This document shows, piece after piece, positions 1 through 37,217 of a stretch of 44,264 bases of DNA; within the stretch, counting starts at the first letter, position 1, and each line of letters begins with the position of its first letter. The notes beneath the pieces were generated by a model. The model was not told where the DNA came from, searched no databases, and saw nothing but the letters and a program-made list of their open reading frames with translations. This DNA comes from Candidatus Methylomirabilota bacterium (GTDB lineage Bacteria > Methylomirabilota > Methylomirabilia > Methylomirabilales > Methylomirabilaceae), in assembly GCA_016207095.1 (NCBI GenBank), contig JACQQF010000060.1, forward strand, positions 1-44,264, given 5' to 3'. The translations under genes and the position numbers were made by a program.

Positions 1-159
1 AGGCCAAATAGTTGGAACGGCACCAGGGAAAGCGATAGTTCTTAGCACGACACCTGTCGACAGTTAGTGCCGTTCCAACCGTTTGGGCAAAAGAATATTT
101 GTTGGCGATTAGGCGAGAAGAGTTGGAACGGCATTAGCCGCGACAAGTTGGAACGGCAC
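1..159. repeat. Composite element with four GTTGGAACGGCAY units (copy 1)
   Basis: The 13-mer GTTGGAACGGCAC or its complement occurs at 11-23, 67-79, 122-134 (last base T) and 147-159. The whole block aligns without gaps to 36763-36921 at about 90% identity (about 14 differences by eye). The inner part, with AGCGATRGTTCTTAGCACG and the palindrome CTGTCGACAG, is shared with the elements at 9459 and 12605. It is probably a non-autonomous transposable or palindromic element, or a nested pair. No transposase is visible. Confidence 0.85.
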
Positions 160-263
160 TCGGCGAGGTCGATTTCTGCGAGGAGAGAGTTCGTGATGGT
201 CCGACTCATGAAACAGACGGTTTTCAACATCGTGATGGTTGGATCGTACCACTGAGGGAAGGT
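160..263. other. Leader region of the subtilase gene
   Basis: About 100 bases between the repeat and the protease start. I see no convincing promoter hexamers. A purine-rich ribosome-binding stretch (GAGGGAAGG) lies just before the ATG at 264. Confidence 0.4.
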
Positions 264-9570: not shown

Positions 9571-10755
9571 ATGAACCCGTATAGGCTTCTGGGTTGCTTT
9601 GGTCTTGCGCTCATTCTGGTTGGCCAGGCATTTCCCGTTGAGGCCCAATCTCCGGTGTCCCTCCGCGTTCTTCTGCCTGGGGGTCCATTTCCAACAGTCG
9701 AGGGAGGGCCGACCCGTATCATGAAACAGGGCTCGACCGTCGAGGTGAGGATCAATGTCGATGGCTCAAATCCGCGCTTCCACCCGGATAATGTTGAAGC
9801 GGTCTGGGTGGGCGAACAGAGGATGCCCTCTGAATTCCCCTCTCGCATCGGTCCGCGCGTGTCAATCCCGCCCACGAGAGGCGACGTGCGCCGCACCGCG
9901 GTCAGCGAGCCAATCAGCCTTCCTGCGGAGCTGTTCTCATGTGGAAGGCATAACCTGCGCGCTGTGGCGGAATTTAGGGGTAGGCATGCAAACATTGCGT
10001 CTCCTGAGCCCGCAACGACGGTATTCCTTGACTGTGGTCCGCCCGGCCTCGAGATCCACGCCCCATCCGGGGGAGCCTGTATCAGGCCAGGAACGGGCAT
10101 TGATCTGCGACTGACGGCCTCCGATGACATCGGGATCAAGGGTCTCACCCGAGACCTCGGCCCTTTGGGGCGACAACACCGCGAACCCACCACCCTGGAG
10201 CGGACATTCGCCCTTAGTGAACGAGTTGCCGTGGGGGACCCACATCGAAACGGTGTGATAAGCGCAGGATTCGAGGCAGAGGATTGGGCAGGGAATAGAC
10301 TCGCCAAGGGCCTCACGTTCACCCTCGACGGGGACGTCCCCCCGACGATCGGGATGGAACGGCCGAGTGACGGACAGCAAGTCACCCAGGTAGATTCCAT
10401 CGCCGTCAGCGGCCAGGCGGCTGATCCCGGCTGCGGCCTCGATCGGATCGAGATTGGGGCGCGGAGACGCGGTACCTCCGACCCATATCGGATTGTAAAG
10501 GCGATTCGGGAATTTCCCCCGGCGCGCTCCGGCCTTCCGACCCCTCGGTTTACCTATCGTGCCGACTTGCCCCCAGGGACCCTGGCGCCGGGGCTATGGG
10601 ACCTTAGAGCAGAGGCCATTAGTCAGACTGGACGCAGGGCAGAGTCCGCGAGACACATCAGGGTCATCGGAGGCCCAACCCTGGCGCTCTCTGCACCCGG
10701 CGGCCGCGAATCGCTCCCGGGAGTTCCCCGACCTACGCTTCCGCCACCCCGATAG
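9571..10755 (+). CDS. Exported Ig-like protein, paralogue of the 6728 gene product
   Basis: 394 residues. AGGAGG precedes the ATG and a signal peptide follows (MNPYRLLGCFGLALILVGQ ... VEAQ). Shared landmarks with the 6728 product include LLPGGPFPT, ASDDIGIKGL, LDGDVPPTIGMERPSDGQ, AADPGCGLDRIEIGAR and APGLWDLRAEAISQTGRR, in the same order and spacing. The pair arose by duplication, with the IPT and CARDB genes now in between. The C-terminus here is longer and proline-rich (GVPRPTLPPPR). No catalytic motif is seen. An extracellular structural or binding role is inferred. Confidence 0.72.
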   Translation: MNPYRLLGCFGLALILVGQAFPVEAQSPVSLRVLLPGGPFPTVEGGPTRIMKQGSTVEVRINVDGSNPRFHPDNVEAVWVGEQRMPSEFPSRIGPRVSIPPTRGDVRRTAVSEPISLPAELFSCGRHNLRAVAEFRGRHANIASPEPATTVFLDCGPPGLEIHAPSGGACIRPGTGIDLRLTASDDIGIKGLTRDLGPLGRQHREPTTLERTFALSERVAVGDPHRNGVISAGFEAEDWAGNRLAKGLTFTLDGDVPPTIGMERPSDGQQVTQVDSIAVSGQAADPGCGLDRIEIGARRRGTSDPYRIVKAIREFPPARSGLPTPRFTYRADLPPGTLAPGLWDLRAEAISQTGRRAESARHIRVIGGPTLALSAPGGRESLPGVPRPTLPPPR

Positions 10756-10857: not shown

Positions 10858-11931
10858 ATGGCGATGGTAACGCACAATGATAGCAGTTCTGCTCCACGGT
10901 TCTGTCCGATGTACTGCATCGTTCCGCCGCACATGCTGAAGGAGATCGCCAGACGCGGGAGCGCCGGACAGCAGGCGTGGGCGTGGCAGACGCTCACCCT
11001 GTCCGAGCAGATGCGGGGTCAGCGCCTGGCGCTGTCTGTCATCGCGGCGATGGGAACAACCGCCACCGGCACCAAACGCCGGACGATCTATGATGCCGGG
11101 AACGGATCGCGCCTGCCGGGTCGGATGGTGCGTGGAGAGGGCGATCCGAGAAGCAAGGATCGGGCGGTGAATGAGGCATACGATGGCTCGGGGGCAACCT
11201 ATGATTTGTACTTCACGGTGTTCGGCCGCAACTCGATTGATGAACGGGGAATGCGATTGGACTCCACCGTCCACTATGGTCGCAAGTATGATAACGCCTT
11301 TTGGAATGGTCAGCAGATGGTCTATGGGGATGGCGATGGCGAGCTCTTCAATCGATTCACGATTGCGATCGATGTGATCGGGCATGAACTGACCCACGGC
11401 GTGACAGACTACGAAGCCGGTCTGGAGTATCAAGATCAGCCGGGCGCCCTCAACGAATCGTTTTCCGATGTCTTTGGGTCACTGGTCAAGCAATATAAAC
11501 GCCGGCAGACTGCGAAGGAGGCCGATTGGCTGATCGGCAAGGGACTGCTCGCCCGTGGGGTGAAAGGGAAAGCGCTCCGTTCGATGAAGGAACCCGGCAC
11601 CGCCTATGACGACGATATCCTCGGAAAAGATCCACAGCCGGGGCATATGAGAGACTATGTGAGGACGCGCGACGATAATGGCGGGGTCCACATCAATTCG
11701 GGCATCCCGAATCGTGCGTTTTGTGAGACTGCGATTGGACTGGGTGGGAACGCATGGGCGAAGGCCGGACAGATCTGGTATGTGACCTTGAGGGACAAGC
11801 TCCGGCCAAACTCCTCATTCAAAGATGCTGCTCGTTGGACAGTGGCGGTTGCGAGGGAGCTATATGGGGTAGGAAGCCTCGAGCAGAAGGCGGTTCGAGG
11901 GGGCTGGGTGGCGGTGGGTATTGGGGTCTAG
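10858..11931 (+). CDS. M4 (thermolysin family) metalloprotease, protealysin-like
   Basis: 357 residues without a signal peptide. The N-terminus has the short protealysin-type propeptide signature (APRFCPMYCIVPPHMLKEIA) rather than the long propeptide of secreted thermolysins. Zinc ligands are His176 and His180 in HELTH (catalytic Glu177) and Glu200 in ALNESFSD. The second catalytic histidine is His278 in GGVHINSGIPNRAF. All key residues are present. AAAGGA precedes the ATG. Protealysin-type enzymes are made as short-propeptide precursors and can act inside the cell or leave by non-classical routes. It is followed, after a heptamer array, by a gene for a small protein like the cognate inhibitor emfourin. 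The last codons and TAG stop lie inside that array. Confidence 0.93.
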   Translation: MAMVTHNDSSSAPRFCPMYCIVPPHMLKEIARRGSAGQQAWAWQTLTLSEQMRGQRLALSVIAAMGTTATGTKRRTIYDAGNGSRLPGRMVRGEGDPRSKDRAVNEAYDGSGATYDLYFTVFGRNSIDERGMRLDSTVHYGRKYDNAFWNGQQMVYGDGDGELFNRFTIAIDVIGHELTHGVTDYEAGLEYQDQPGALNESFSDVFGSLVKQYKRRQTAKEADWLIGKGLLARGVKGKALRSMKEPGTAYDDDILGKDPQPGHMRDYVRTRDDNGGVHINSGIPNRAFCETAIGLGGNAWAKAGQIWYVTLRDKLRPNSSFKDAARWTVAVARELYGVGSLEQKAVRGGWVAVGIGV

Positions 11932-12056
11932 GGTACAAGATAGAGGGGGTAGGGCATAGGGGATAGGGGATAGGGTAGAGCGTATCGGGTGTCGGGGTCG
12001 AGGGGTCAGCGGGCCTTTCTTGGTTTTTACCCTAAACCCTGAACCCCATACCCTGT
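11924..12056. repeat. Heptamer array 1 (GGGKATA type, two arms)
   Basis: Twelve consecutive 7-nt units in strict phase from 11924 to 12007, such as GGGTCTA, GGGCATA, GGGGATA twice and GGGTAGA. After a loop of about 20 bases come four complementary units at 12029-12056 (ACCCTAA, ACCCTGA, ACCCCAT, ACCCTGT). The protease stop codon (11929-11931) lies in the first units. Confidence 0.85.
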
Positions 12057-12072
12057 TCTTGTGAGGTGAAGC

Positions 12073-12390
12073 GTGAAGGTTGAGTTCTGTCGGACCGGAG
12101 GAGTTGCAGGGACACGGTTGACGGCGACGCTCGATACCGAGAGGCTTTCCCCCCAGGAGGCGGACCGTCTTAGGCGCCTGATATCCACCGCTTGCTTCTT
12201 CGATCAACCCACCTCGCTGAAATCTTCAACGTCAGGAGCCGATCGGTTTCAGTATCAGGTGACGGTTGAGGAGGGAGACCGGATAAAGAAGGTCGAAATC
12301 GATGAATCGTGTGTCCCGAGGACGTTCCAGCCACTCATCGATTATCTCCTCGATTCCTGCCGAGCCCGCCAGAAGATCAAGCGTTCATAG
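12073..12390 (+). CDS. Emfourin-like inhibitor of M4 proteases
   Basis: 105 residues from GTG 12073, with GAGGTGAA upstream. The sequence pattern FCRTGGVAGTRLTATL, then LSPQEADRLRRLI and ACFFDQP, fits the emfourin family: small cytoplasmic proteins that inhibit protealysin-like proteases and are encoded beside them. Here it follows the M4 protease gene by about 140 bases, which supports the call. Such a pair would let the cell hold an intracellular protease silent. The stop TAG (12388-12390) and the last two codons lie inside heptamer array 2. Confidence 0.8.
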   Translation: MKVEFCRTGGVAGTRLTATLDTERLSPQEADRLRRLISTACFFDQPTSLKSSTSGADRFQYQVTVEEGDRIKKVEIDESCVPRTFQPLIDYLLDSCRARQKIKRS

Positions 12391-12468
12391 TTCGTAGTTG
12401 ATGGTTCATAGGTTTCAATTCAGGGCCGGCACTTCTGGTCTATGAACTCTGAACTGTGAACGATGAAC
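12383..12468. repeat. Heptamer array 2 (GTTCATA type, two arms)
   Basis: Left arm 12383-12424: GTTCATA, GTTCGTA, GTTGATG, GTTCATA, GGTTTCA, ATTCAGG. Right arm 12441-12468: TATGAAC, TCTGAAC, TGTGAAC, GATGAAC. The arms are complementary unit by unit. The array begins in the last codons of the inhibitor gene. Confidence 0.85.
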
Positions 12469-12484
12469 GCCAGTGCTCTCCGAG

Positions 12485-12513
12485 TTGACTTTTCACGGAA
12501 AAGGCCGTATAAC
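12485..12513 (+). promoter_or_regulatory. Sigma-70-type promoter ahead of the gap operon
   Basis: TTGACT (12485-12490), exactly 17 bases, TATAAC (12508-12513). This is the best consensus promoter in the window. The expected start near 12520 lies just before a terminator-like hairpin, so it would give either a very short RNA or a leader for the gap operon with early termination. Confidence 0.65.
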
Positions 12514-12522
12514 GAGGCGAGG

Positions 12523-12556
12523 ATTCGCTCCGTCCTCGGGAGCGGATTTTTGTTTT
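12523..12556 (+). terminator. Intrinsic terminator-like hairpin right after a promoter
   Basis: ATTCGCTCC (12523-12531), loop GTCCTCG, GGAGCGGAT (12539-12547): a 9-bp stem with one G-T pair, followed by TTTTTGTTTT. It starts about 10 bases after the -10 box of the preceding promoter. Alternatively it ends a transcript from the emfourin gene upstream. Confidence 0.65.
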
Positions 12557-12604
12557 GGCCCCCGGTGAGGGTGTCCGCCCGCGGAGCGGTAATCGTTTGA
12601 TCAT

Positions 12605-12712
12605 CTAGTGCCGTTCCAACTATTTCCGCCTAAATGGTAAGGCCGGGGAAAGCGATGGTTCTTAGCACGACACCTGTCGACAGTTAGCCGCAACAAGTTG
12701 GAACGGCACTAG
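12605..12712. repeat. Complete TAGTGCCGTTCCAAC element (form B)
   Basis: This complete copy runs CTAGTGCCGTTCCAAC ... GTTGGAACGGCACTAG, about 106 bp between the flanking CTAGs. The 13-bp termini at 12608-12620 and 12697-12709 are perfect inverted repeats. The interior matches 9459-9529 and parts of 1-159. The right end lies four bases before the ribosome-binding site of gap. TA at each end would fit a TA target duplication, but that is inference. Confidence 0.85.
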
Positions 12713-13734
<1,022 letters not shown>

Positions 13735-13735
<1 letters not shown>

Positions 13736-13851
13736 ATTTGAGGTTTCGAGCTCCGGGTTCCGAGTTCCAGGTAGGGGCGACCCGCCGGGTCGCCCCTACA
13801 CCTGACACGCCACACCCGAAACTCGAAACCCTAAACCCGAAACACGAAACT
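13735..13851. repeat. Heptamer array 3 (GGTTCCG type) with nested palindrome
   Basis: Left arm 13735-13776: AATTTGA, GGTTTCG, AGCTCCG, GGTTCCG, AGTTCCA, GGTAGGG. Right arm 13803-13851 includes CGAAACT, CGAAACC, CTAAACC, CGAAACA, CGAAACT. A separate perfect palindrome occupies the loop (13771-13799). The array starts at the last base of the gap stop codon and ends five bases before the pgk ATG, leaving no clear ribosome-binding site. Confidence 0.85.
13771..13799. repeat. 29-bp perfect palindrome
   Basis: GTAGGGGCGACCCG, one central C, then the exact reverse complement (CGGGTCGCCCCTAC). From general knowledge, palindromes of this sequence type are dispersed in many bacterial genomes. Here it sits in the loop of heptamer array 3. 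Confidence 0.85.
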
Positions 13852-13856
13852 CAGGC

Positions 13857-15047
13857 ATGAAGCTCTGTATCGATGACCTCGACCTGAACGGGAAGCGGCT
13901 TCTGATCCGAGTTGATTTCAATGTCCCACTCGACGAGCATGGAAAGATCGCCGATGATACGCGCGTGCGCGCCGCTCTCCCCACGATCACCTACGCGGTT
14001 GGGCATGGCGCGAAGGTTATTCTGATCTCTCATCTGGGGCGGCCCAAGGGGGGTCCTTCTCCGAAACTCAGCCTCGCGCCGGTGGCTGCCAGGCTCTCAG
14101 CGTTGCTCGGACGTCCGGTGGAGATGGCCGACGACTGCGTGGGACCGGGCGTGAAAGCTCGGATCGACAGGATGGGCGCAGGGCAGGTTCTGATGCTGGA
14201 GAACTGCCGCTTTCATCCCGAAGAGGAGAGGAACGACGAAGGTTTCGCCCGGGCGTTGGCGGATCTTTGTGACCTGTACGTGAACGATGCGTTCGGCACT
14301 GCGCACCGGGCTCACGCGTCCACCGTGGGTGTGACGAGATTCGTCAAGGATGCGGCGTGCGGCTTTCTCATGCGCACGGAGCTCGAACATTTGGGCGCCG
14401 TGCTCGACTCGCCGAAGCGCCCCTTCGTCGCAATCCTCGGCGGAGCAAAGGTTTCGGACAAGATCGGGGTCCTGGCCAATCTGCTCTCGAAGGTGAATAG
14501 CGTTCTGATCGGCGGGGGAATGGCCTATACCTTCCTGAAGGCCCAGGGGCTGGAGGTGGGCAACTCCCTTGTGGAGGTTGACCGGCTGTCGGTGGCCAAG
14601 GAGACGATGGAGCAGGCCAGGCGCTTGAAGGTCGCCATCCATCTGCCCCGGGATCATGTGATTGCCGAGCGGGTTGACGCTGGAACGACCACTAGGCTGG
14701 TTGAGGGGGCCATCCCGGGCGGGTGGATGGGACTCGACATCGGCCCCGCGACGATGGGCCGATTTGTTGAGGAGATCGGACGAGCCAAGACGATCCTGTG
14801 GAACGGACCGATGGGGGTCTTCGAGCTTGCTCCCTTCCAAAAGGGAACGTTCGCCCTTGCTAGGGCGGTGGCAGCCTCCGGCGCCCATTCGGTCATTGGC
14901 GGCGGAGATACCGCAGCCGCAGTTGCTCAAGCCGGAGTTGCAGAGAAGATGACCCATATCTCGACGGGGGGTGGGGCATCCCTGGAGTTTCTAGAGGGGA
15001 AAGAGTTACCCGGCATCGCCGCGATCAGCGAAAAGGCTAGGGTGTAG
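13857..15047 (+). CDS. pgk: Phosphoglycerate kinase
   Basis: 396 residues. Substrate-site motif RVDFNVPLDE (residues 18-27, with Asp20 and Asn22), then SHLGRPKGG, then GGAKVSDKIGVL at the hinge side, and GGGDTAAAVAQAG near the C-terminus for nucleotide binding. It transfers phosphate from 1,3-bisphosphoglycerate to ADP. Normal length. The ATG follows heptamer array 3 with no recognisable ribosome-binding site. The final residues (ARV) and the TAG stop are read from heptamer array 4. Confidence 0.98.
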   Translation: MKLCIDDLDLNGKRLLIRVDFNVPLDEHGKIADDTRVRAALPTITYAVGHGAKVILISHLGRPKGGPSPKLSLAPVAARLSALLGRPVEMADDCVGPGVKARIDRMGAGQVLMLENCRFHPEEERNDEGFARALADLCDLYVNDAFGTAHRAHASTVGVTRFVKDAACGFLMRTELEHLGAVLDSPKRPFVAILGGAKVSDKIGVLANLLSKVNSVLIGGGMAYTFLKAQGLEVGNSLVEVDRLSVAKETMEQARRLKVAIHLPRDHVIAERVDAGTTTRLVEGAIPGGWMGLDIGPATMGRFVEEIGRAKTILWNGPMGVFELAPFQKGTFALARAVAASGAHSVIGGGDTAAAVAQAGVAEKMTHISTGGGASLEFLEGKELPGIAAISEKARV

Positions 15048-15141
15048 GGTCTAGGGAATAAGGTAGAGGATAGAGGGTGATCGTTGAATGAATCCATTCA
15101 GGGTTGGTACTAGACCCTAGACGCTAAACCCTATACCCTGT
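15037..15141. repeat. Heptamer array 4 (CTAGGGT type, two arms)
   Basis: Left arm 15037-15078: CTAGGGT, GTAGGGT, CTAGGGA, ATAAGGT, AGAGGAT, AGAGGGT. Right arm 15114-15141: ACCCTAG, ACGCTAA, ACCCTAT, ACCCTGT. It starts 8 bases before the pgk stop codon (15045-15047) and ends 9 bases before the tpiA ATG. Confidence 0.85.
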
Positions 15142-15150
15142 TTTCTCACG

Positions 15151-15915
15151 ATGCGGACACCACTTGTTGCAGGCAATTGGAAGATGTATAAGACACCGTC
15201 CGAGGCCATTGTGCTGGCGCAGGCGGTGGTCAGGAGACTGTCTGCACCTGATGGGGTCGAAGCGGTGGTCTGTCCTCCGTTCACCGCGCTTGAGGCTGTT
15301 GCGAAGGTGGTCGCGGGGTCGAGAGTGGGCCTGGGAGCGCAGGACGTCCATTGGGAGAAGGAAGGGGCTTACACCGGCGAGGTGTCCGCAGAGATGCTGC
15401 ATGATCTCGGGTGCCGTTACGTCATCGTCGGCCACTCCGAGCGGCGCCAGTACTTCGGTGAGACTGATGAGCGTGTGAACAAGAAGAGCTTGGCCGCGCT
15501 AGCCAGTGGGCTCATTCCAATTATCTGCGTCGGCGAGACCCTCTCCGAGCGAGAGGCGGGCCACGCCAAGGAGATTGTGGCGGCCCAGGTGAAGGGCGCC
15601 TTATCGGGATTGTCCCCCAAAGAGGCTCAGGCACTTGCTCTTGCCTATGAGCCGGTCTGGGCCATCGGGACGGGCAAAACGGCCACACCCTCCCAGGCCG
15701 AGGAGATGCACGCGCATATCCGGATGACTATCGCCGGGCTGTTCGGCGCCGATGTTGCGAAGGAGGTTCGCATCCTCTATGGGGGAAGCGTCAAGCCCGA
15801 GAACGCCCAAGAGTTGCTTCAACGATCGGATATTGACGGCGCCCTGGTTGGCGGTGCCAGCCTTCAGGCCGATTCCTTCGCTTCGATCGTGAAAGCCGCC
15901 AAAACTTCAGGGTAG
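15151..15915 (+). CDS. tpiA: Triosephosphate isomerase
   Basis: 254 residues. Lys11 (GNWKMYKT), His95 (VGHSERR) and Glu167 (AYEPVWAIGTG) are the catalytic residues, and YGGSVKPEN plus GALVGGASL give the phosphate-binding end of the barrel. It interconverts dihydroxyacetone phosphate and glyceraldehyde 3-phosphate. Normal length. No ribosome-binding site is visible before the ATG, which follows array 4. The stop TAG (15913-15915) lies inside array 5. Confidence 0.98.
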   Translation: MRTPLVAGNWKMYKTPSEAIVLAQAVVRRLSAPDGVEAVVCPPFTALEAVAKVVAGSRVGLGAQDVHWEKEGAYTGEVSAEMLHDLGCRYVIVGHSERRQYFGETDERVNKKSLAALASGLIPIICVGETLSEREAGHAKEIVAAQVKGALSGLSPKEAQALALAYEPVWAIGTGKTATPSQAEEMHAHIRMTIAGLFGADVAKEVRILYGGSVKPENAQELLQRSDIDGALVGGASLQADSFASIVKAAKTSG

Positions 15916-15983
15916 AGGGTTTAGGGTTCAGGGAATAGGGTTCACAGTAGCCCTTGACCCTAGATCCTATCCCCTAGACCCTG
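15908..15983. repeat. Heptamer array 5 (TAGGGTT type, two arms)
   Basis: Left arm 15908-15942: CAGGGTA, GAGGGTT, TAGGGTT, CAGGGAA, TAGGGTT. Right arm 15951-15983: CCCTTGA, CCCTAGA, TCCTATC, CCCTAGA, CCCTG. It starts 5 bases before the tpiA stop codon. The secG ribosome-binding site follows directly. Confidence 0.85.
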
Positions 15984-16001
15984 CCTCTCAAGGAGGTACG
16001 C

Positions 16002-16349
16002 ATGTTCATTACGCTTTCGGTTCTCCATCTGCTCATTGCGGTTGTCCTTGTCGTGGTTGTGCTCCTGCAGAGCGGCAAGGGCGCCGACATCGGCGCCACC
16101 TTTGGGGGCGGCTCGAGCCAGACCGTCTTCGGTGGCCGCGGTGCCGCCACCTTCTTGAGCAAGTTGACATCAGCGGTCGCCGTGCTCTTTATGATCTCGT
16201 CCCTCATGTTGGCCATCTATTCGGGGCGCAGGGGAAGTTCGTCGGTGATCACAGAGGAACGAGCCAAGCAGGCCGTCCCTAGCCCCTCGCCCCCACCCGG
16301 GCAAACGGCGCCTCCTGCCGGCCAGGCGCCGCCCCCCGCCACCAAATAG
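16002..16349 (+). CDS. secG: Protein-export membrane protein SecG
   Basis: 115 residues. Two transmembrane helices (about 3-22 and 52-72) flank the conserved cytoplasmic loop QSGKGADIGATFGGGSSQTV with FGGRGA. This is the SecYEG subunit that aids SecA-driven export. The C-terminal tail (PSPSPPPGQTAPPAGQAPP) is proline-rich. AAGGAGG lies about 8 bases before the ATG, the clearest ribosome-binding site among genes downstream of an array. tpiA-secG adjacency is common in bacteria. Confidence 0.95.
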   Translation: MFITLSVLHLLIAVVLVVVVLLQSGKGADIGATFGGGSSQTVFGGRGAATFLSKLTSAVAVLFMISSLMLAIYSGRRGSSSVITEERAKQAVPSPSPPPGQTAPPAGQAPPPATK

Positions 16350-16354
16350 CAAGC

Positions 16355-16456
16355 GTTCAGAGTTCATGGTTCAGAGTTTGTAGTGAAGGACTGTCCGGAC
16401 CGAAGTCAGCAACTTGCGAACTGCGAGCTGTTATCTATGAACTATCAACTATGAAT
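16355..16456. repeat. Heptamer array 6 (GTTCAGA type, two arms)
   Basis: Left arm 16355-16389: GTTCAGA, GTTCATG, GTTCAGA, GTTTGTA, GTGAAGG. Right arm 16415-16456: TGCGAAC, TGCGAGC, TGTTATC, TATGAAC, TATCAAC, TATGAAT. The last unit contains the ATG of the next gene. Confidence 0.85.
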
Positions 16457-16801
16457 GCCTTCGCCAGGCAGATGTGGAGCCGCACGCGGCAACGCCTCGG
16501 CCATGCATTTGCTCTCCAGGGAGAGATGGATGGGGCCAGGGCGGATGATCTCGCGCTCCTTGATCGCTTTGCCAGCCTGCTGGCGGATCGCGGGCTTGCC
16601 ACCCCGGCGATCTTTCTCGTGCAATCGCTTGCCCCCCTCGGTTTCCTCGGAAGTCAGCTCGTCCACGCCCTCTCACCGATCTTGGGAATGGTCGCCACGC
16701 CTGATGAGATCGAGCGGCTTGCCCGTCTGATGGAGGGCCGTGAGACCCCGGCACTCTTCACCGACCGCCTCATTCATGAGGAGGAGGCTCGCGGTCGATG
16801 A
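16451..16801 (+). CDS. Small hypothetical protein upstream of the GlmL-like gene
   Basis: 116 residues, mostly helical by composition, with a hydrophobic stretch around 53-80 (PAIFLVQSLAPLGFLGSQLV). I recognise no family. The ATG lies in the last unit of heptamer array 6 and has no ribosome-binding site. Its stop overlaps the next start by four bases (ATGA), so the two are probably translationally coupled and functionally linked. It belongs to the run of genes ending at 23734. Confidence 0.7.
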   Translation: MNAFARQMWSRTRQRLGHAFALQGEMDGARADDLALLDRFASLLADRGLATPAIFLVQSLAPLGFLGSQLVHALSPILGMVATPDEIERLARLMEGRETPALFTDRLIHEEEARGR

Positions 16802-18663
16802 CCGGTTCCACCAGGTCCTTCGGCTCCGCTCAGGACAAGCTCACCACAGGTGGTTCGACCGAGCTCACCAGAGCCGCTGAGATGGCGGCGATCCTGGCCA
16901 CCGACTGTGGCAGCACAACCACCAAGGCCATCCTGATCGAGAAGGTCGGCGGCGAGTACCGTCAGACCTTTCGCGGCGAGGCGCCGACCACCGTCGAGGC
17001 GCCTGTCGAGGATGTGACGCGTGGCGTCCTGAACGCCATCCAGGAGGTGGAGGAGCTGTCGGGCCGGAAAATCCTTGACGGGGAGAAGATCCTGACGCCG
17101 GCCGAAGGGAGGCACGGGGTCGATCTCTACGTCTCCACCAGCAGTGCCGGGGGCGGCCTCCAGATGATGGTGGCCGGGGTCGTGATGGCCATGACCGCCG
17201 AGAGCGCCCAGCGTTGCGCCCTTGGCGCCGGCGCCATCGTCATGGATGTTCTGGCCAGCAACGATGGGCGCGCTGCGCATGAGAAGATCGAGCGGATCCG
17301 GCATCTTCGTCCGGATATGATCCTGCTGTCGGGTGGGACCGACGGCGGAACCATCTCGCACGTGGTGGAGATGGCCGAGTATATTCGAGCAGCCGACCCA
17401 AAGCCCCGCCTCGGCGGGGGCTACATGCTGCCGATCATCTTCGCTGGCAACAAGGATGCGCGTGGCCAGATACAAGAGATCCTGGGTGATCGAACCGCCC
17501 TGGTCATCGCGGACAACATCCGTCCCGTCCTCGAGCGGGAGAACCTGTCGCCAGCCCGCCACATGATCCACGAGCTCTTTCTCGAGCATGTCATGGCCCA
17601 GGCGCCAGGGTACGGGACGCTGATCGGCTGGACCGGCGCGCCGATCATGCCGACGCCGGCCGCTGTCGGCCTCATCATGGAAAAGGCGGCGCGACAACAA
17701 GGGCTGAATCTCCTCGGCGTTGATATTGGTGGTGCCACGACCGACGTCTTCTCGGTGGTAGACGGGCAGTTTACCCGAACGGTCAGCGCCAATCTTGGGA
17801 TGAGCTACAGCGTCAGCAACGTCTTGGCCGAGGCCGGCCTCGAGCAGATTCAGCGATGGCTCCCGGTGTTACTGGACGAACAGGACGTGCGAAACCGGAT
17901 CAAGAACAAGATGATCCGCCCCACGACCATCCCGCAGACCCAGGAAGACCTAGCCCTGGAGCAGGCGGTGGCCCGGGAGGCGCTGCGCCTGGCCCTGGAT
18001 CAACACAAGATGCTGGCGGTCGGCCTGAAAGGTGTTCAGCAAGAACGGACCATTAGCGATGCCTTCGAACAGCACAAGGGTGGGAAGAGCCTGATCGATC
18101 TGTACCGGATCGATCTGATCATCGGCAGCGGCGGGATCCTCTCGCACGCGCCGCGCCGAGTCCAGGCGATGCTGATGCTGATCGACGCCTACCAGCCGCT
18201 GGGTCTGACGCGACTGGCCGTGGACAGCATCTTCATGATGCCGCATCTGGGTGTCCTGTCCCAGGTCAACGACCGGGCGGCGACCGAGGTCTTCCTGAAG
18301 GACTGCCTGATCCCGCTCGGAAGTTGCCTTGCTGCAGAGGGGACCGGAAAGCCGGGTGAGCCCTGTTTCGCCTACACGATACGGTTCGCTGATGGTCAGC
18401 ACGAGAAAGGCGCGCTCCGTTTCGGGGAACTCCGTCGTATCGAGTGGTCTCCTGAAGCTGAAGCCGAGCTGCACGCCGAGCCGTCGAGAGGCTTTAACCT
18501 CGGCGCCGGCGACGGGAGAGCGGTGACGGTCAAGGCGACCGGCGGCGCGGTTGGTCTGATCCTCGATGCCAGGGGCCGGCCGCTGAGGCTGCCCGATGAG
18601 CCGTCAGAACGGGCTGCGCAACTGCGCGCCTGGGCGAAGGCGGTCGACCTGTATCCCGAATAA
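16798..18663 (+). CDS. GlmL/MutL-family ASKHA ATPase, orphan
   Basis: 621 residues. Phosphate-1 motif ATDCGSTTTKAIL (Asp36), STSSAGGGLQMMVAG, phosphate-2 motif VDIGGATTDVFSV (Asp309) and SGGILSHAPR match the glutamate-mutase MutL/GlmL group of actin/hexokinase-fold ATPases. That family is usually an accessory beside B12-dependent glutamate mutase subunits; none is encoded here. AGGAGG about 9 bases before ATG 16798 and the ATGA overlap support this start, but residues 2-28 (STRSFGSAQDKL ...) are read from a dispersed repeat. The core begins at Met29 (16882), an alternative start. The cluster of membrane proteins downstream suggests a different role, perhaps energising an envelope complex (inference). 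Confidence 0.85.
   Translation: MTGSTRSFGSAQDKLTTGGSTELTRAAEMAAILATDCGSTTTKAILIEKVGGEYRQTFRGEAPTTVEAPVEDVTRGVLNAIQEVEELSGRKILDGEKILTPAEGRHGVDLYVSTSSAGGGLQMMVAGVVMAMTAESAQRCALGAGAIVMDVLASNDGRAAHEKIERIRHLRPDMILLSGGTDGGTISHVVEMAEYIRAADPKPRLGGGYMLPIIFAGNKDARGQIQEILGDRTALVIADNIRPVLERENLSPARHMIHELFLEHVMAQAPGYGTLIGWTGAPIMPTPAAVGLIMEKAARQQGLNLLGVDIGGATTDVFSVVDGQFTRTVSANLGMSYSVSNVLAEAGLEQIQRWLPVLLDEQDVRNRIKNKMIRPTTIPQTQEDLALEQAVAREALRLALDQHKMLAVGLKGVQQERTISDAFEQHKGGKSLIDLYRIDLIIGSGGILSHAPRRVQAMLMLIDAYQPLGLTRLAVDSIFMMPHLGVLSQVNDRAATEVFLKDCLIPLGSCLAAEGTGKPGEPCFAYTIRFADGQHEKGALRFGELRRIEWSPEAEAELHAEPSRGFNLGAGDGRAVTVKATGGAVGLILDARGRPLRLPDEPSERAAQLRAWAKAVDLYPE
16804..16870. repeat. GCTCAGGAC-type dispersed repeat, copy 1
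   Basis: Contains CCGCTCAGGACAAGCTCACC and ACAGGTGGTTCGAC. Related stretches occur at 22899, 23676, 32210 (other strand) and 36576 (other strand). Here it codes residues 3-25 of the GlmL-like protein in frame. Confidence 0.75.
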
Positions 18664-18666
18664 AAC

Positions 18667-18785
18667 GTGCGAAGTGCGAGGTACGAAGTGCGAAGTGCGA
18701 TGAAACGCGTGCGAGGTGCGAAGTGCGACGTGCGAAGTGCGAAAGGTTCAACCCCGCACCCCGCACCCCGCACCCCGCACACTTA
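18667..18785. repeat. Heptamer array 7 (GTGCGAA type, two arms)
   Basis: Eleven in-phase units from 18667 to 18743, nine of them GTGCGAN or GTACGAA. The right arm is four perfect ACCCCGC units plus ACACTTA (18751-18785). It starts 4 bases after the GlmL stop and ends 3 bases before the next ATG. This is the most regular array. Confidence 0.9.
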
Positions 18786-18788
18786 GCT

Positions 18789-19973
18789 ATGGCCCATTCA
18801 TATACGCCGGGCTTGCGTGTCACGCCGCGGACTGTAGTCCGCAAGAGGCGAATCCTGCCGATCCCTGGTCAGGTGCTCGTCAACGAGGGACAGGCCGTCA
18901 CGGCTGCTACCGTGATCGCGCAGGCCGATCTTCCAGGCAAGGTGCATACGGTCAACGTTGTCAACCTCCTGGGGATTGTGCCGGATGAGATCCGGCGCTA
19001 CATGTTAAAGCGTGAGGGCGATTCAGTCCGGGCGGGCGAGCCGCTTGCCGAGAACCGGCCATTCATCAAATGGCTCAAGACGCGAGTTCCTGCGCCCATC
19101 ACAGGAACGGTCGAGAGTGTCTCTGAGGTGACCGGCCAGGTCTTCTTGCGGGAGCCGGCCAAGCCTCTGGCCCTGTCGGCCTATCTGGACGGGCTCGTGG
19201 TCGAGACCTTCCCGGGACAGGGGGCATCGGTGGAGACGCCCTGCAGCCTGGTGCAGGGGATCTTCGGGATCGGCGGCGAAGCGGCCGGAACGATCGCGGT
19301 GGGCGTCGCTAACCCAGAGGAGGCCCTCGTTCCGGAGCGGATGACAGACGCGCATCGCCACACGATCCTCGTAGGCGGCTCGTTCATCGATCGGGAGGGA
19401 CTGGCCAGGGCACAGCAGGTCGGCGTCAGTGCCATTGTCGTCGGTGGAATACGCGACCTCGATCTGAAGGCCCTGATTGGACGTGATCTTGGTGTGGCGA
19501 TCACCGGGACGGAGCAGGTCGGCTTGACCCTGATCATCACCGAGGGCTTTGGCCGAATCACGATGGCCAGGCGGACCTTCGACCTCCTGACCTCCATGGT
19601 CGGCAAGCGCGCATCATGTTCAGGCGCGACGCAGATCCGGGCCGGCGTGATCCGGCCCGAAGTGATCATTCCGCTCACCCCCCCACCCTTCCCTCCCCCT
19701 CGGAGGGGGGAGGGCGAGGGAGGGGGTGCGGAGTCCGGGGTGCGAGGTGCGAAAGGAGTCGAGACGCAGGCACTCGGGGGTGGGCTGAAGGTGGGCGATC
19801 AGATTCGCATCATTCGAGAGCCCTACTTTGGGCGGATCTGCAGGGTGGCCGCTCTTCCCGCCGACCTCCAGGTCCTTCCCACAGAGAGTAAGGCTCGCGT
19901 CCTGGAGGCAGAGTTTGAGGATGGGCAGCGGGCCCTGGTCCCGCGGGCAAATGTCGAGCTCCTGGAGCTATGA
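18789..19973 (+). CDS. Hypothetical protein with barrel-sandwich-like N-terminus and C-terminal KOW-like segment
   Basis: 394 residues from ATG 18789. An open frame continues upstream but is made only of repeat-derived sequence. Residues about 20-130 have Gly/Pro-spaced beta pattern (GQVLVNEGQAVTAATVIAQA, then VPAPITGTVESVSEVTGQV), like barrel-sandwich or lipoyl-type folds. Residues about 190-290 resemble an alpha/beta domain (TILVGGSFIDREGLARAQQV, VSAIVVGGIRDLD). Residues about 330-394 look like a KOW segment (LKVGDQIRIIREPYFGRICR). Residues about 296-322 (PLTPPPFPPPRRGEG ...) are encoded by repeats inserted in frame. The gene has no ribosome-binding site. Function unknown; context ties it to the GlmL-like ATPase and the membrane proteins. 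Confidence 0.7.
   Translation: MAHSYTPGLRVTPRTVVRKRRILPIPGQVLVNEGQAVTAATVIAQADLPGKVHTVNVVNLLGIVPDEIRRYMLKREGDSVRAGEPLAENRPFIKWLKTRVPAPITGTVESVSEVTGQVFLREPAKPLALSAYLDGLVVETFPGQGASVETPCSLVQGIFGIGGEAAGTIAVGVANPEEALVPERMTDAHRHTILVGGSFIDREGLARAQQVGVSAIVVGGIRDLDLKALIGRDLGVAITGTEQVGLTLIITEGFGRITMARRTFDLLTSMVGKRASCSGATQIRAGVIRPEVIIPLTPPPFPPPRRGEGEGGGAESGVRGAKGVETQALGGGLKVGDQIRIIREPYFGRICRVAALPADLQVLPTESKARVLEAEFEDGQRALVPRANVELLEL
19676..19753. repeat. Palindrome plus four heptamers inside a coding sequence
   Basis: A C-rich/G-rich palindrome at 19676-19728 is followed by GTGCGGA, GTCCGGG, GTGCGAG, GTGCGAA in phase from 19726 to 19753. The block keeps the frame and adds a Pro/Arg/Gly-rich linker to the protein. 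Confidence 0.8.
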
Positions 19974-19978
19974 GCAAA

Positions 19979-20081
19979 GTGCGAGGTGCGAAGTGCGAGG
20001 TGCAATGAGAAGAGTGCGAGGTGCGGGGTGCGGGGTGCGGGGTGCCCACCGATCCCACGCCGCACCCCGCACCCTGCACTC
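19979..20081. repeat. Heptamer array 8 (GTGCGGG type, two arms)
   Basis: Ten units from 19979 to 20048, including GTGCGAG three times and GTGCGGG three times in a row. Right arm 20061-20081: CGCACCC, CGCACCC, TGCACTC. It starts 6 bases after the stop at 19973 and contains the only plausible start codon (20005) of the next gene. Confidence 0.85.
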
Positions 20082-21321
20082 TTTCTCGGGACGCGCTCTT
20101 GCCCCGGTCCTTGTTGTCCTCCTCTGTACCTTCTTTCCTCTACCCTCCACCCTAGCGGTCTCGCTCTCACCTCCTGAGCAGTTCGAGGCCTTCGACATGC
20201 CTGGCGATAGCGGCGGCAGCGTCGGGTTGTCGTGGCGAGCCGCTCCTTTCGATGGCCCCCCCCTTCGGTATCAGGTGTTCTTTGGCGAGCAGGAGCGCGG
20301 ACCTTACACACAGCTCGCCGAGTTCCCTGCCAATAGTCACTACAAGAGCGACGCCGATCGGCCATGGTGGAGCTGGGACCGGACAAAGAACGTCCACTTC
20401 TATCAGGTCAAGTCAACTCGAACGCTCAACCTCGTGAACGGGCGGCCGTACTTCTTCAAGGTGGCGCTGACTGACGGGACGCAGAGCCTGGAGGGACCGG
20501 GCCGCTCGGCGGTCCCTGAACCGAATCTGTTCAACTGGAACAAGGCGAACAACTTTCTCCTGATGATCGTCTTCTCGACCCTTGTCTTGATCTCGATATC
20601 GCAGGCAAAACGCCGCCCCAACATCTTCCTGCGCCGCATCCCTGGCCTCGACGCGGTGGAAGAGGCGATCGGTCGGGCAACGGAGATGGGGCGGCCGATC
20701 CTCTATCTGACCGGCTCGGATGATATGTCGAGTCTGTCTACGATCGCTGCCACGGTGATCCTGGGTCAAGTCGCCAAGCGGACCGCGGCCCTCGACACGC
20801 AACTGAAGGTGCCTCACCGCGACCCGATCGTCATGGCGGTCTGCCAGGAGATCGTCAAGGAGTCGTATCTTGAGGCGGGACGGCCCGATGCGTACCGGGA
20901 GGACTCGAACTTCTTCATCACCTCAGACCAGTTTAGCTACGCGGCCGCCGTCGATGGCATCATGCTCCGCGAGCGGCCCGCAGCCAATTTCTTCATGGGC
21001 TTCTACTATGCCGAGGCACTCCTCCTGACGGAGACCGGCGCCGGAACCGGGGCGATCCAGATCGCCGGGACCGATGCTGACCTGCAACTGCCCTTCTTCA
21101 TTACAACGTGCGACTATACCTTGATCGGCGAGGAGTTGTACGCTGCCAGTGCCTACCTCTCGCGGGAGCCGGTGCTGGTCGGGACCTTGAGAGGTCAAGA
21201 CCAGGGGAAGGCGTTTCTCCTGATCTCCATGGTGATCGGGACCATCTTGGCGACAATCGGCGCATTGACCGGGACCCAGACATTCGTACCAGTGCTCCAG
21301 CTTTTCCGCGACTTCAAGTGA
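20005..21321 (+). CDS. Membrane protein with fibronectin-III-like domain (DUF6754-like)
   Basis: 438 residues from ATG 20005. No other ATG, GTG or TTG lies between it and the hydrophobic signal segment (LAPVLVVLLCTFFPLPSTLA), so residues 2-30 or so (RRVRGAGCGVRGA ...) are translated heptamer repeat forming an arginine-rich n-region. A fibronectin-III-like domain follows (VGLSWRAAPFDGPPLRYQVF ... GRPYFFKVALTD). A transmembrane helix (NFLLMIVFSTLVLISIS) precedes a conserved domain with GRPILYLTGSDDMSS, FFITSDQFSYAAAVDG and AGTDADLQLPFF. A last helix lies near the C-terminus (LISMVIGTILATIGAL). The domain resembles what I recall as DUF6754; I am not certain of that name. Function unknown. Confidence 0.7.
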   Translation: MRRVRGAGCGVRGAHRSHAAPRTLHSFSGRALAPVLVVLLCTFFPLPSTLAVSLSPPEQFEAFDMPGDSGGSVGLSWRAAPFDGPPLRYQVFFGEQERGPYTQLAEFPANSHYKSDADRPWWSWDRTKNVHFYQVKSTRTLNLVNGRPYFFKVALTDGTQSLEGPGRSAVPEPNLFNWNKANNFLLMIVFSTLVLISISQAKRRPNIFLRRIPGLDAVEEAIGRATEMGRPILYLTGSDDMSSLSTIAATVILGQVAKRTAALDTQLKVPHRDPIVMAVCQEIVKESYLEAGRPDAYREDSNFFITSDQFSYAAAVDGIMLRERPAANFFMGFYYAEALLLTETGAGTGAIQIAGTDADLQLPFFITTCDYTLIGEELYAASAYLSREPVLVGTLRGQDQGKAFLLISMVIGTILATIGALTGTQTFVPVLQLFRDFK

Positions 21322-21322
21322 G

Positions 21323-21364
21323 GTGCGAGGTGCGAGGTGCGAAGTGCGGGGTCCGAGGTAGGGC
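21323..21364. repeat. Heptamer array 9 (GTGCGAG type, single arm)
   Basis: Six in-phase units: GTGCGAG, GTGCGAG, GTGCGAA, GTGCGGG, GTCCGAG, GTAGGGC. It starts one base after the stop at 21321 and ends 6 bases before the next ATG. No complementary right arm is present. Confidence 0.85.
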
Positions 21365-21370
21365 GGATAC

Positions 21371-22009
21371 ATGACATTGTTCCTGCGACGGACCCTTCCA
21401 CTGCTGCTGACCTTCCTGTTCGGCGTCGCGTTCGCCGTGCAGTACTACATTCCTCATCCGGTCTCCGAGGGGGCGCTCACCGAGATCTCGATCTGGCTCA
21501 GGATTATCCTTGGATTCGCCATGATCCTGGGGATCGCGAGCCTTTGCCAGGTTCACTATGCCAAGATCCGGACGAGGGTCGCCGGCTGGGGCTATAGCCT
21601 GGTGGTCTATTTCTCGATGCTGATCACAGTGGCAGTTGGCCTCTGGGCGCGCGGACAGGAGACGGGGACGGGGCTCGGCTGGATCTACACCTACACCCTG
21701 TTGGCCCTGCAAGGGACGATGTTCTCCATACTCGGCTTCTTCGTCGCGTCGGCCGCGTTCCGAGCCTTCCGGGCGAGAAGCAAGGAGGCGACAGTCCTGC
21801 TGGTGGCGGCCATCCTCATGATGTTCGGCCGGGTGCCGCTGGGCGAGTACCTGGTCCCGGCTGCGGGCCCGCTGGCCGGGTGGCTTCTGAATGTCCTGAA
21901 CCTCGCCGCCCGGAGAGGGATCATCATCGGGATCAGTCTTGGCGGGATCGCCACCTCGATCAAGATCATCTTCGGGATCGAGCGCTCGTACCTGGGGGGG
22001 CGCGAGTAA
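21371..22009 (+). CDS. Polytopic membrane protein of unknown function (cluster)
   Basis: 212 residues with about six transmembrane helices (for example LPLLLTFLFGVAFAVQYYI, IILGFAMILGIASL, LVVYFSMLITVAVGLW, LLALQGTMFSILGFFVASA, LLVAAILMMFGRV and GIIIGISLGGIATSI). I recognise no transporter signature. Its C-terminal sequence (FGIERSYLGGRE) is coded by a stretch duplicated about 73 bases downstream. It belongs to the GlmL-like cluster and probably forms a complex with the neighbouring membrane proteins (inference from conserved spacing only). Confidence 0.75.
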   Translation: MTLFLRRTLPLLLTFLFGVAFAVQYYIPHPVSEGALTEISIWLRIILGFAMILGIASLCQVHYAKIRTRVAGWGYSLVVYFSMLITVAVGLWARGQETGTGLGWIYTYTLLALQGTMFSILGFFVASAAFRAFRARSKEATVLLVAAILMMFGRVPLGEYLVPAAGPLAGWLLNVLNLAARRGIIIGISLGGIATSIKIIFGIERSYLGGRE

Positions 22010-36762: not shown

Positions 36763-36921
36763 AGGCCAAATAGTTGGAACGGCACCAGGGACAGCGATGG
36801 TTCTTAGCACGACACCTGTCGACAGTTAGTGCCGTTCCAACTTTTTGGGCAACAGAACATCGCTTGGCGATTAGCCGAAACGAGTTGGAACGGCATTAGC
36901 CGCAGCAAGTTGGAACGGCAC
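36763..36921. repeat. Composite GTTGGAACGGCAY element (copy 2)
   Basis: Gap-free match to 1-159 at about 90% identity. The 13-mer units are at 36773-36785, 36829-36841 (reverse), 36884-36896 and 36909-36921. With the truncated copy just upstream this makes a nested cluster of six units in under 300 bases. Confidence 0.85.
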
Positions 36922-36925
36922 TAGC

Positions 36926-37217
36926 CCCTGTGGCCTGTGGAATTGTGTCAAGCATACAACTCATGCTGGCCGCCCGCCACGTGCTATTTCTCGAATTTTA
37001 CGCATGTTGGAGACCGAAGTCTACAGCTTTTTGGCGTCGTTACCGAGTTCGGCGAATCTTGGTCCGAGGGACTTAGCCAGACCAGCGGCCTAAGGGAAGT
37101 CAGGAGGCTGGCCCACGGCCGACAAAAGGCTGTGTTGGGAATTCGAATAAAGCCACCCCTGGATTAATACGGTTACTCTGTGAAATGCGAATTGGTATGA
37201 ACGGTATTGGGCTCGAT
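36926..37217. other. Gene-free region, comparatively AT-richer
   Basis: About 290 bases between the composite element and the 3' end of a glycosyltransferase gene. No ORF with family resemblance, terminator or promoter recognised. The base composition looks less GC-rich than the flanking genes, so it may be foreign or degraded DNA. Confidence 0.4.

Follow-up and report, generated by a model that had tools for sequence, protein, structure and literature searches.

Heptamer arrays at conserved slots bear different words in related Methylomirabilota genomes

What copies heptamers, and why in sevens? This question is raised by a stretch of 44,264 nucleotides (nt) from a Candidatus Methylomirabilota bacterium (assembly GCA_016207095.1, contig JACQQF010000060.1), called the window in the following. 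A first-pass annotation had described nine spacers between positions 11924 and 21364 as arrays of degenerate 7-nt units. All nine are present close to where it placed them, and the layout that it reported for most sites (left arm, loop, complementary right arm) was recognized by eye at eight of the nine. The question can be tested through comparison of strains and of sister species with different vocabularies of heptamer words. We propose that the arrays are short, usually of four heptamers, and undergo concerted evolution in place with a genome-wide bias; we give this reading an even chance.

Results

Period 7 exceeds chance

The window is one whole contig of a genome (G000) with 103 contigs, 2,903,549 bp, and 94.9% completeness. 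From this genome, 41 stretches were sampled, corresponding to 740,658 of the 2,903,549 bases. Many of them were picked from contigs with known GTTCATA arrays, and therefore the array density in the 740,658 bp does not equal the genome average. Fifteen genomes of the genus were compared, among them the sister species G011 (80% complete), G002 (81%), and G006, which is a single contig of 2,752,854 bp. Home-made gene calls underlie the coding and intergenic figures.

Two detectors were used for periodicity. The looser one called 120 arrays at period 7 and 0, 0, 6, 2, 2, and 2 arrays at periods 4, 5, 6, 8, 10, and 11. At periods 9, 12, 13, and 15 it called 11, 8, 1, and 11, and at period 14, the double of 7, it called 64. 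With the stricter detector, 65 arrays were found at period 7, none at periods 4, 5, 6, 8, 10, and 11, and 4, 1, and 2 at periods 9, 12, and 15; one first-order Markov resample gave 0 arrays at every period. Most period-7 arrays (87/120) overlapped coding sequence by under 25%, 23 by 75% or more, and 10 were between these limits. Nearly all arrays at periods 6, 9, 12, and 15 were coding, the intergenic ones being 0/6, 1/11, 1/8, and 1/11, respectively. Chance is excluded as the source of the period-7 excess, and the 7-nt periodicity that the annotation had proposed to look for in other spacers of the genome is in excess there. The arrays are heptameric tandem repeats, with units of exactly 7 nt and a mainly intergenic location.

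Unit grammar and pairing of arms

A search by core revealed units made up of five steady letters (GTTCA, AGGGT, GTGCG, GTTCC, or GTTTC) and two freer letters; in GTTTC units, the sixth letter is nearly fixed too. A core-free test agreed, the two most variable phases being adjacent in 60/104 tie-free arrays (1/3 expected, p = 3e-7). The length of runs with at least three units peaked at four (GTTCA 20/30, AGGGT 14/23, GTGCG 32/76, with 28/76 at five). A steady core with two freer letters also speaks for selected sites, in which 5-nt cores would be read every 7 nt by a fast-changing protein, or paired arms would be kept as mRNA stem-loops. Slots would then persist because they are functional, and the words would follow the specificity of the partner. 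We consider this explanation unlikely. Several words coexist in one genome, which argues against it.

Spacer arms, where paired, are head to head. This holds for 64/64 pairs of same-core runs within 150 bp (loops of −3 to 91 nt), which are partly dependent, since some have a common arm and some come from near-identical relatives. The sample comprised the own stretches and 20 stretches of relatives. Runs that had no head-to-head partner were the only ones scored for a tail-to-tail arrangement, which gave 0. A cruder count of neighboring arrays within 160 bp yielded 26 inverted pairs, 4 on the same strand, and 5 with other words. The G/C balance of the inverted pairs was G then C in 14 cases, C then G in 1, and undecided in 11.

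In GTGCG and AGGGT arrays, the free letters of the two arms match less within a site than across sites (0.395 vs 0.541 and 0.483 vs 0.552, respectively), and in GTTCA arrays they match slightly more (0.547 vs 0.491). Copying of one arm from the other through the hairpin was rejected because of the low within-site match in GTGCG and AGGGT, which also counts against selected sites. The free letters of GTGCG follow gene direction, the 5' arm being A-rich and the 3' arm G-rich on the core strand (p = 5e-4). Strand asymmetry was also found for GTTTC (p = 0.02) and not for GTTCA (0.80), AGGGT (0.40), or GTTCC (0.19); where present, it is in favor of selected sites.

So is the location of the arrays between the stop and start codons of co-directional genes. 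Among spacers of 40 to 600 bp, 69/327 co-directional ones and 5/70 others bore an array. In the 69 spacers, the array started at a median of 4 nt past the stop codon and ended at a median of 19 nt before the start codon. Site limits, orientation of neighbors, spacer placement, and slot and word-distance counts were obtained with a detector slightly looser than that behind the 120 arrays.

The loops are unrelated between sites. Among 20 loops of at least 16 nt from the own genome, no similarity above that of shuffles was detected, save in one pair whose loops hold array units, and loops alone gave no folding signal (50 loops, mean z 0.15). This bears on a mobile element similar to repetitive extragenic palindromes (REPs), REP doublets forming hairpins (REPINs), or miniature inverted-repeat transposable elements (MITEs), which would insert whole hairpins. 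Dispersed families with one word numerous in one species would suit such an element, and so would the replacement of word classes at slots. We regard it as very unlikely. Transposition of whole hairpins was rejected because loops at different sites are unrelated, and the 20 own loops provide no conserved internal body of the MITE kind. The Y1 transposase (PF01797) had 0 matches in G000, G001, G002, G008, and G011, and the reverse transcriptase (PF00078) had none in G000, G001, G002, G003, G011, G012, and G014, several of these assemblies being incomplete. PF01797 was present in 30/60 relatives without visible relation to arrays. A REP or REPIN assignment was likewise rejected, with no Y1 transposase in G000 and no conserved palindrome (unrelated loops, several words per genome). 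The annotation's view that these are not ordinary REP elements agrees with the unrelated loops, the lack of a Y1 transposase match in the own assembly, and arrays that changed in length by 7 and 14 nt.

Orthologous slots are occupied by different words

Arrays have preferred slots. For 29 spacers orthologous between the own genome and G011, both were occupied in 9 cases, only the own in 2, only the other in 0, and neither in 18 (Fisher p = 5e-6). No word class was shared in 6 of the 9 doubly occupied spacers. The corresponding counts for 57 spacers orthologous to G014 were 14, 8, 8, and 27 (p = 0.0045). Here, 6/12 classified doubly occupied spacers had no class in common and 2 were unclassified; 5/12 is the safer figure, because the secG-orfX arrays (GTTCA vs GTCCA) are by eye one array with decayed units. 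The word classes lie close to one another in sequence, and whether two of them count as different depends partly on the threshold. These counts indicate that occupancy is inherited more faithfully than the word. The annotation had proposed a look at orthologous spacers: they are occupied more often than expected, but often by another word. Conserved occupancy with a changing word is also what selected sites would give.

An example is the spacer after the MutL-type gene, whose limits in relatives are accurate to about 1 base. The word core is GTGCG in the own genome, GTTCA in G011 (GTTCATA arms) and G004, GTTTC in G002, G009, and G013, AGGGT in G007, G008, G012, and G014, and TCAGC in G001. No class was called by the classifier in G003, G005, and G006.

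Two arrays of mixed composition were noted. In a right arm of G007 and G014 (locus L129, position 13216; relatives L209 and L210), ACCCTAA/ACCCGAC units pass in phase into ACCCCGC units, which hints that one word class can arise from another. At L179 (17041-17151), a GTTCAC left arm is paired with a GTGCGGG right arm, possibly an intermediate of a word change.

Words are replaced inside genes

Word replacement also occurs within coding sequence, at two slots or more. A gene for a pseudouridine synthase of the RluA family (TIGR00005 above cut-off; PF00849) has an array slot between the motifs VYGG and ERxLLHA. The slot bears nine words in ten genomes, each about four times: GTGCGAG/GTGCGGG in the own genome, GTTTCGG in G002, GTCAGCG in G010, GTGTTGA in G006, GTGGAGA in G009, GTTCAAC in G013 and G012, GTTCAAA in G005, GCGGGAG in G008, and GTTCACG in G014. 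The slot is 81 nt long in 9 of 13 sequences of the genus, 87 nt in 1, and 66 nt in 3 (G001, G003, and G004). In the four relatives of family f3 that were read, it measures 60 nt; thus, 81 equals 60 + 21 and 87 equals 66 + 21. No clear array was seen by eye in eight relatives of other families (21 sequences in all).

The second in-gene slot is in the window. The hosting gene (18789-19973, plus strand) has a sub-threshold likeness to RnfC_N (19.7 bits vs a cut-off of 25.6), and the slot lies 3' of the motif I[IV]P[LM]. In the own genome it holds a tenth array of the window, absent from the annotation, with GTGCGGA/GTGCGAG units in frame (19723-19753, plus strand). Ten relatives have six words there, each in four 7-nt units: CGGTCAG in G002 and G004, CGTTCAA in G007, G013, and G014, CCTTCAG in G005, CGGGCAG in G001, CGGGAGG in G008 and partly in G003, and CAGTCAG in G006. 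The stretch is 93 nt in 8/10 relatives and 90 nt in G008, and that of G006 was clipped by the search pattern. Adjoining the in-gene array, G000 has a hairpin insert of a C-run and a G-run at 19690-19725 (protein sequence TPPPFPPPRRGEGEGGG), and such an insert is also found in G011. A different proline-rich insert stands next to this slot in G009.

Per 7 letters, units of the two in-gene slots differ by 0.75 and 0.60 within species, and by 2.94 and 3.63 between species when matching units are compared. The RluA mean covers 10 genomes, with the short forms of G001, G003, and G004 left out. The window-gene mean covers 10 relatives, of which G007 and G014 are nearly identical; left out were G000 and G011 (GTGCG array and a longer, different insert), G009 (other insert), and G012 (cut off). 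Species after species, the same codons of a gene thus bear a different word, about four times over. By eye, the phase relative to the flanks is kept, which is not clear for G010. Since the reading frame is kept, an array must have been rewritten without net length change or via 21-nt steps (60 to 81, 66 to 87). The kept frame and mostly kept length are at odds with the insertion of a mobile element. In-gene arrays are single arms and alter a protein loop between species, which does not suit selected sites.

Species have their own vocabularies

Words are reused over the genome. Among 7140 pairs of own arrays, 1339 are within one change of each other, as compared to 161 expected from base composition. 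The annotation had assigned each site its own heptamer. The arrays are real, but this description is misleading, because the words fall into few classes reused genome-wide, and at one site (gapA-pgk) the two arms differ (GTTCC/GTTTC).

Counts of four patterns over the genus are specific to species; they are hits (about three per five-unit array) and not sites. The pattern GTTCATAGTTCATAG (2 mismatches) gave 55 hits in the own genome, 157 in G011, 1 in G001, 0 in the four f4 genomes, and 0 to 3 per f5 and f7 genome. Three GTGCGNN units in tandem gave 350 hits in the own genome, 39 in G011, 34 in G002, and 13 or fewer in the other 12 genomes of the genus (reversed control, up to 20 in the genus and 1 in the own genome). 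AGTGTNN x3 had 49 hits in G006 and 77 in G008; none of the remaining 13 genomes exceeded 5, and the reversed control did not exceed 9. GTTCAAN x3 was frequent in G013 (194), G007 (181), G014 (164), G003 (125), and G009 (75), with 17 or fewer hits in the other ten, including 4 in G008 and 0 in the own genome (reversed control, 8 or fewer). G008 and G013, sisters in a five-protein tree (support 0.86), thus have opposite counts for AGTGTNN and GTTCAAN. AGGGTNN x3 occurred in each of the 15 genomes of the genus, with 19 to 177 hits apiece, and was absent from the f4 genomes.

Loci that are not linked within a genome accordingly have words in common that are absent from a sister species. The annotation had spoken of shared architecture without shared sequence; this does not hold, since words recur at many unlinked sites, and GTGCGNN is abundant in the own species alone of the genus. 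Overall, its interpretation is supported in part.

Vocabularies also bear on another explanation, in which replication slippage acts locally and alone at every site, and palindromes persist by chance or through template switching. The abundance of GTGCGNN in one species of the genus makes local slippage insufficient by itself. Alone, it explains neither species-wide vocabularies, nor same-word arms in fixed orientation around an unrelated loop, nor the usual four units. In its favor, the G010 array in the RluA gene looks as if about one and a half units, a seed still present in G001 and G003, had been expanded by 21 nt. We judge it distinctly unlikely as the whole explanation.

Word distances reflect both descent and a habit of the genome. 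The fraction of consensus words within one change was 0.137 in the own genome, 0.173 in G014, and 0.089 in G011; across genomes, it was 0.098 (own-G011) and 0.067 (own-G014), and 0.023 at random. The samples differ only modestly in G+C content (own 0.615, G011 0.604, G014 0.582), and G+C drift was therefore rejected as the driver of word differences.

Length changes are concentrated in arrays

Recent change was followed in the close pair G007 and G014 (nine aligned blocks, about 134 kb, 99.0 to 99.9% identical). The arrays had 13 substitutions and 4 insertions or deletions (indels) in 1,940 bp, other intergenic DNA had 69 and 2 in 19,365 bp, and coding DNA had 285 and 2 in 112,677 bp. Three of the four array indels (7, 14, 22, and 32 nt) are at one site. 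Such an indel excess, with two of the four at 7 and 14 nt, also fits local slippage. Changed letters were 5/324 at free positions and 4/800 in cores, which are small numbers. Cores do not clearly evolve more slowly than the rest of the intergenic DNA (4/800 vs 69/19,365), a further point against selected sites.

Array sites of the window

The genes in this part of the window are, in order, those for an M4 peptidase and emfourin, gapA, pgk, tpiA, secG, a small open reading frame (orfX, no Pfam match), and the genes for the MutL-type (PF13941), RnfC_N-like, and DUF6754 proteins. Six of the nine sites fold better as RNA than dinucleotide shuffles do (z −2.8 to −6.6), which supports selected sites, and two do so weakly (−0.8 and −1.3).

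Site 1 (11924-12063), between the genes for the M4 peptidase and emfourin, has a left arm of AGGGGAT/AGGGTAT type, a loop, and a right arm of CCCTAAA type (z −0.8). Site 2 (12383-12468) begins over the 3' end of the emfourin gene and consists of GTTCATA GTTCGTA GTTGATG GTTCATA, a 30-nt loop, and an inverted arm of 4 GTTCANN units (z −4.4). In the gapA-pgk spacer, site 3 (13740-13852) has a GTTCCNN left arm and an inverted GTTTCNN right arm, and a REP-like hairpin in its loop (GTAGGGGCGACCCG...CGGGTCGCCCCTAC, 13771-13799) makes up much of the stem. A similar GTACGGGCGGGT hairpin is present in the gapA-pgk spacer of G004 and G006, where heptamer arms were not called. Site 4 (15036-15145, pgk-tpiA) comprises an AGGGTNN arm, a 31-nt loop, and an inverted AGGGTNN arm (z −2.8); its first unit and the TAG stop codon of pgk overlap. 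Site 5 (15910-15985, tpiA-secG) has an AGGGTNN left arm and an inverted right arm (z −3.8). At site 6 (16352-16453, secG-orfX), a GTTCANN left arm is followed by an inverted, more degenerate right arm (z −1.3).

Site 7 (18666-18783), between the MutL-type gene and the next gene, has two GTGCGAA-rich left runs and an inverted right arm of GTGCGGG x4. Site 8 (19975-20084) contains GTGCGAG/GTGCGGG runs and an inverted right arm (z −6.0). Site 9 (21320-21362, plus strand) is a single left arm of GTGCGAG x5 without a right arm, and its RNA folds no better than dinucleotide shuffles (z +1.8). Contrary to the annotation, the gap from stop to start codon is not filled at every site: about 250 bp remain before the next start codon at site 2 and about 190 bp at site 8.

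In a comparison of positions 11800-21500 to Rfam, no match reached the gathering score; the 17 matches were all to microRNA models and far below it. Upstream of gapA there is an element of about 109 bp (12605-12713) with terminal inverted repeats (CTAGTGCCGTTCCAACT.../...AGTTGGAACGGCACTAG). Elsewhere in the window (108-167 and 36870-36926), 25-bp tandem units contain AGTTGGAACGGC.

Discussion

In-place concerted evolution of the arrays may proceed as follows. Strand slippage or template switching in 7-nt steps would build a tetramer from one local unit. Inside genes, the step would be +21 nt (three units), because the frame allows no smaller one. Loss and regrowth would carry a mutated unit across the whole array. 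A trans-acting factor, or copying between arrays, might prefer a 5-nt core and thereby bias the choice of the winning unit; arrays at unlinked places of a genome would thus drift to the same words. The paired spacer arms are probably transcribed as an intercistronic stem-loop, and a binding or RNA role of the spacer arrays is possible.

More tentatively, a machinery with a changeable 5-nt specificity could build arrays of about 28 nt (4 x 7) and rewrite them at many places in a genome; the arrays would stay where they are, and inside genes the reading frame would remain intact. Related species would switch words genome-wide. We see this as possible but doubtful. If true, the five steady letters would be the recognized part, seven the step, and the two free letters unread.

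Several observations weigh against in-place concerted evolution under a genome-wide bias. Of the four recent array indels, two are not multiples of 7, and 130 runs have no partner arm. Free letters of neighboring units are hardly more alike than those of units shuffled within the array, and thus recent tandem copying is weak in spacers (adjacent-unit counts: GTTCA 28/84, AGGGT 2/73, GTGCG 92/272, GTTCC 8/30, GTTTC 5/15). Greater likeness of adjacent units had emerged from a first lag test, whose detector selects for such likeness; the effect mostly vanished in the core-based test. The consensus words of one genome resemble each other only slightly more than they resemble those of other genomes, and their likeness is partly plain descent, since the fraction is higher for orthologous slots (0.25). 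In G002, G005, and G006, the two in-gene slots have different words (they agree in G008 and G013), and GTTCAAA, an in-gene word of G005, is rare in the remainder of its genome (3 hits). Finally, reverse transcriptase, Y1 transposase, and Ku (PF02735) were rejected as the responsible enzyme, because their presence does not track the arrays.

Heptamer arrays themselves are already known from Xanthomonas, Geobacter, Nostoc, and Beggiatoaceae. Replication slippage was reportedly proposed by Mrazek and others in 2007 for the abundant heptamers of bacteria (cited in PMC4692102 and PMC4679880). The short tandemly repeated repetitive (STRR) heptamers of cyanobacteria are intergenic heptamer direct repeats. 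Rickettsia palindromic elements are repeat DNA tolerated in coding sequence and have a conserved element sequence; at the in-gene slots described here, by contrast, the same codons bear different words from species to species. Repeat DNA within coding sequence, as at our in-gene slots, is also reported in PMC2996958. According to work cited in PMC4679880, heptamers outnumber every other kind of long simple repeat in the majority of the bacterial genomes surveyed, with a cause only suggested. Both PMC4692102 and PMC4679880 cite their over-representation in bacteria as well as a slippage idea that invokes the length of DNA contacted by the polymerase.

The design resembles that of the GGGNATC repeats of Xanthomonas and the GGGGA(C/T)T repeats of Nostoc (Rehm 2015, PMC4692102). 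In passages of that paper, these are intergenic heptamers, mostly in four units, with variable positions (GGGANTN). They lie near stop codons, often between co-directional genes, and most are transcribed there. Convergent pairs occur in Xanthomonas (70 and 75 cases), and all 64 scored pairs here are head to head as well. For 83% of the Xcc repeats, Xac has a G-rich repeat at the same place. They differ from the present arrays in having one word per lineage and in being studied as G-quadruplexes; here, GGG occurs in the AGGGTNN core only, and GTTCA, GTGCG, GTTCC, and GTTTC are without it. Unlike the present arrays, the repeats in those passages come without word replacement at slots and without rewriting inside genes. 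Calothrix has three heptanucleotides (cited in PMC4692102), and the likeness to cyanobacterial heptamers that the annotation had pointed out fits these statements on Nostoc and Calothrix.

In Geobacter metallireducens, four tandem heptanucleotides GGACCGG are reported from 49 places between and within genes, and class 3 sites with five tandem MTYCTGA are drawn as a strand-switching pair (PMC2700814). The passages concerned interpret them as regulator-binding sites or RNA elements and make no between-species comparison of slots. The TAACTGA repeats of Beggiatoaceae are also intergenic heptamer direct repeats, scattered over phyla. They differ in that passages of PMC4679880 give one inverted repeat in 170 sets and single-base variants that are rarely repeated. 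Among the matches listed from the open-licence literature, none deals with heptamer arrays in this lineage or with word turnover at fixed slots or inside genes, and heptamer terms were not found in PMC4060949.

Arrays of similar design were also seen in other phyla. Among 80 named loci from a pgk search (the best 80 of at least 590; 1.29 Mb), there were 9 strict and 15 looser period-7 arrays; strict periods 6, 8, and 9 gave 10, 3, and 6. For 6 of the 15 looser arrays, a facing arm agrees with the word in 16 to 18 of 21 positions, a count without a computed null. In an acidobacterial metagenome-assembled genome (L072), facing heptamer arms are located by eye in the apparent gap-pgk and tpi-secG spacers (9911-9942 and 12078-12115). 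Facing arms in this genome, in Clostridiales (L031), and in Nostocales (L050) indicate that arrays built in this way probably occur beyond the present lineage.

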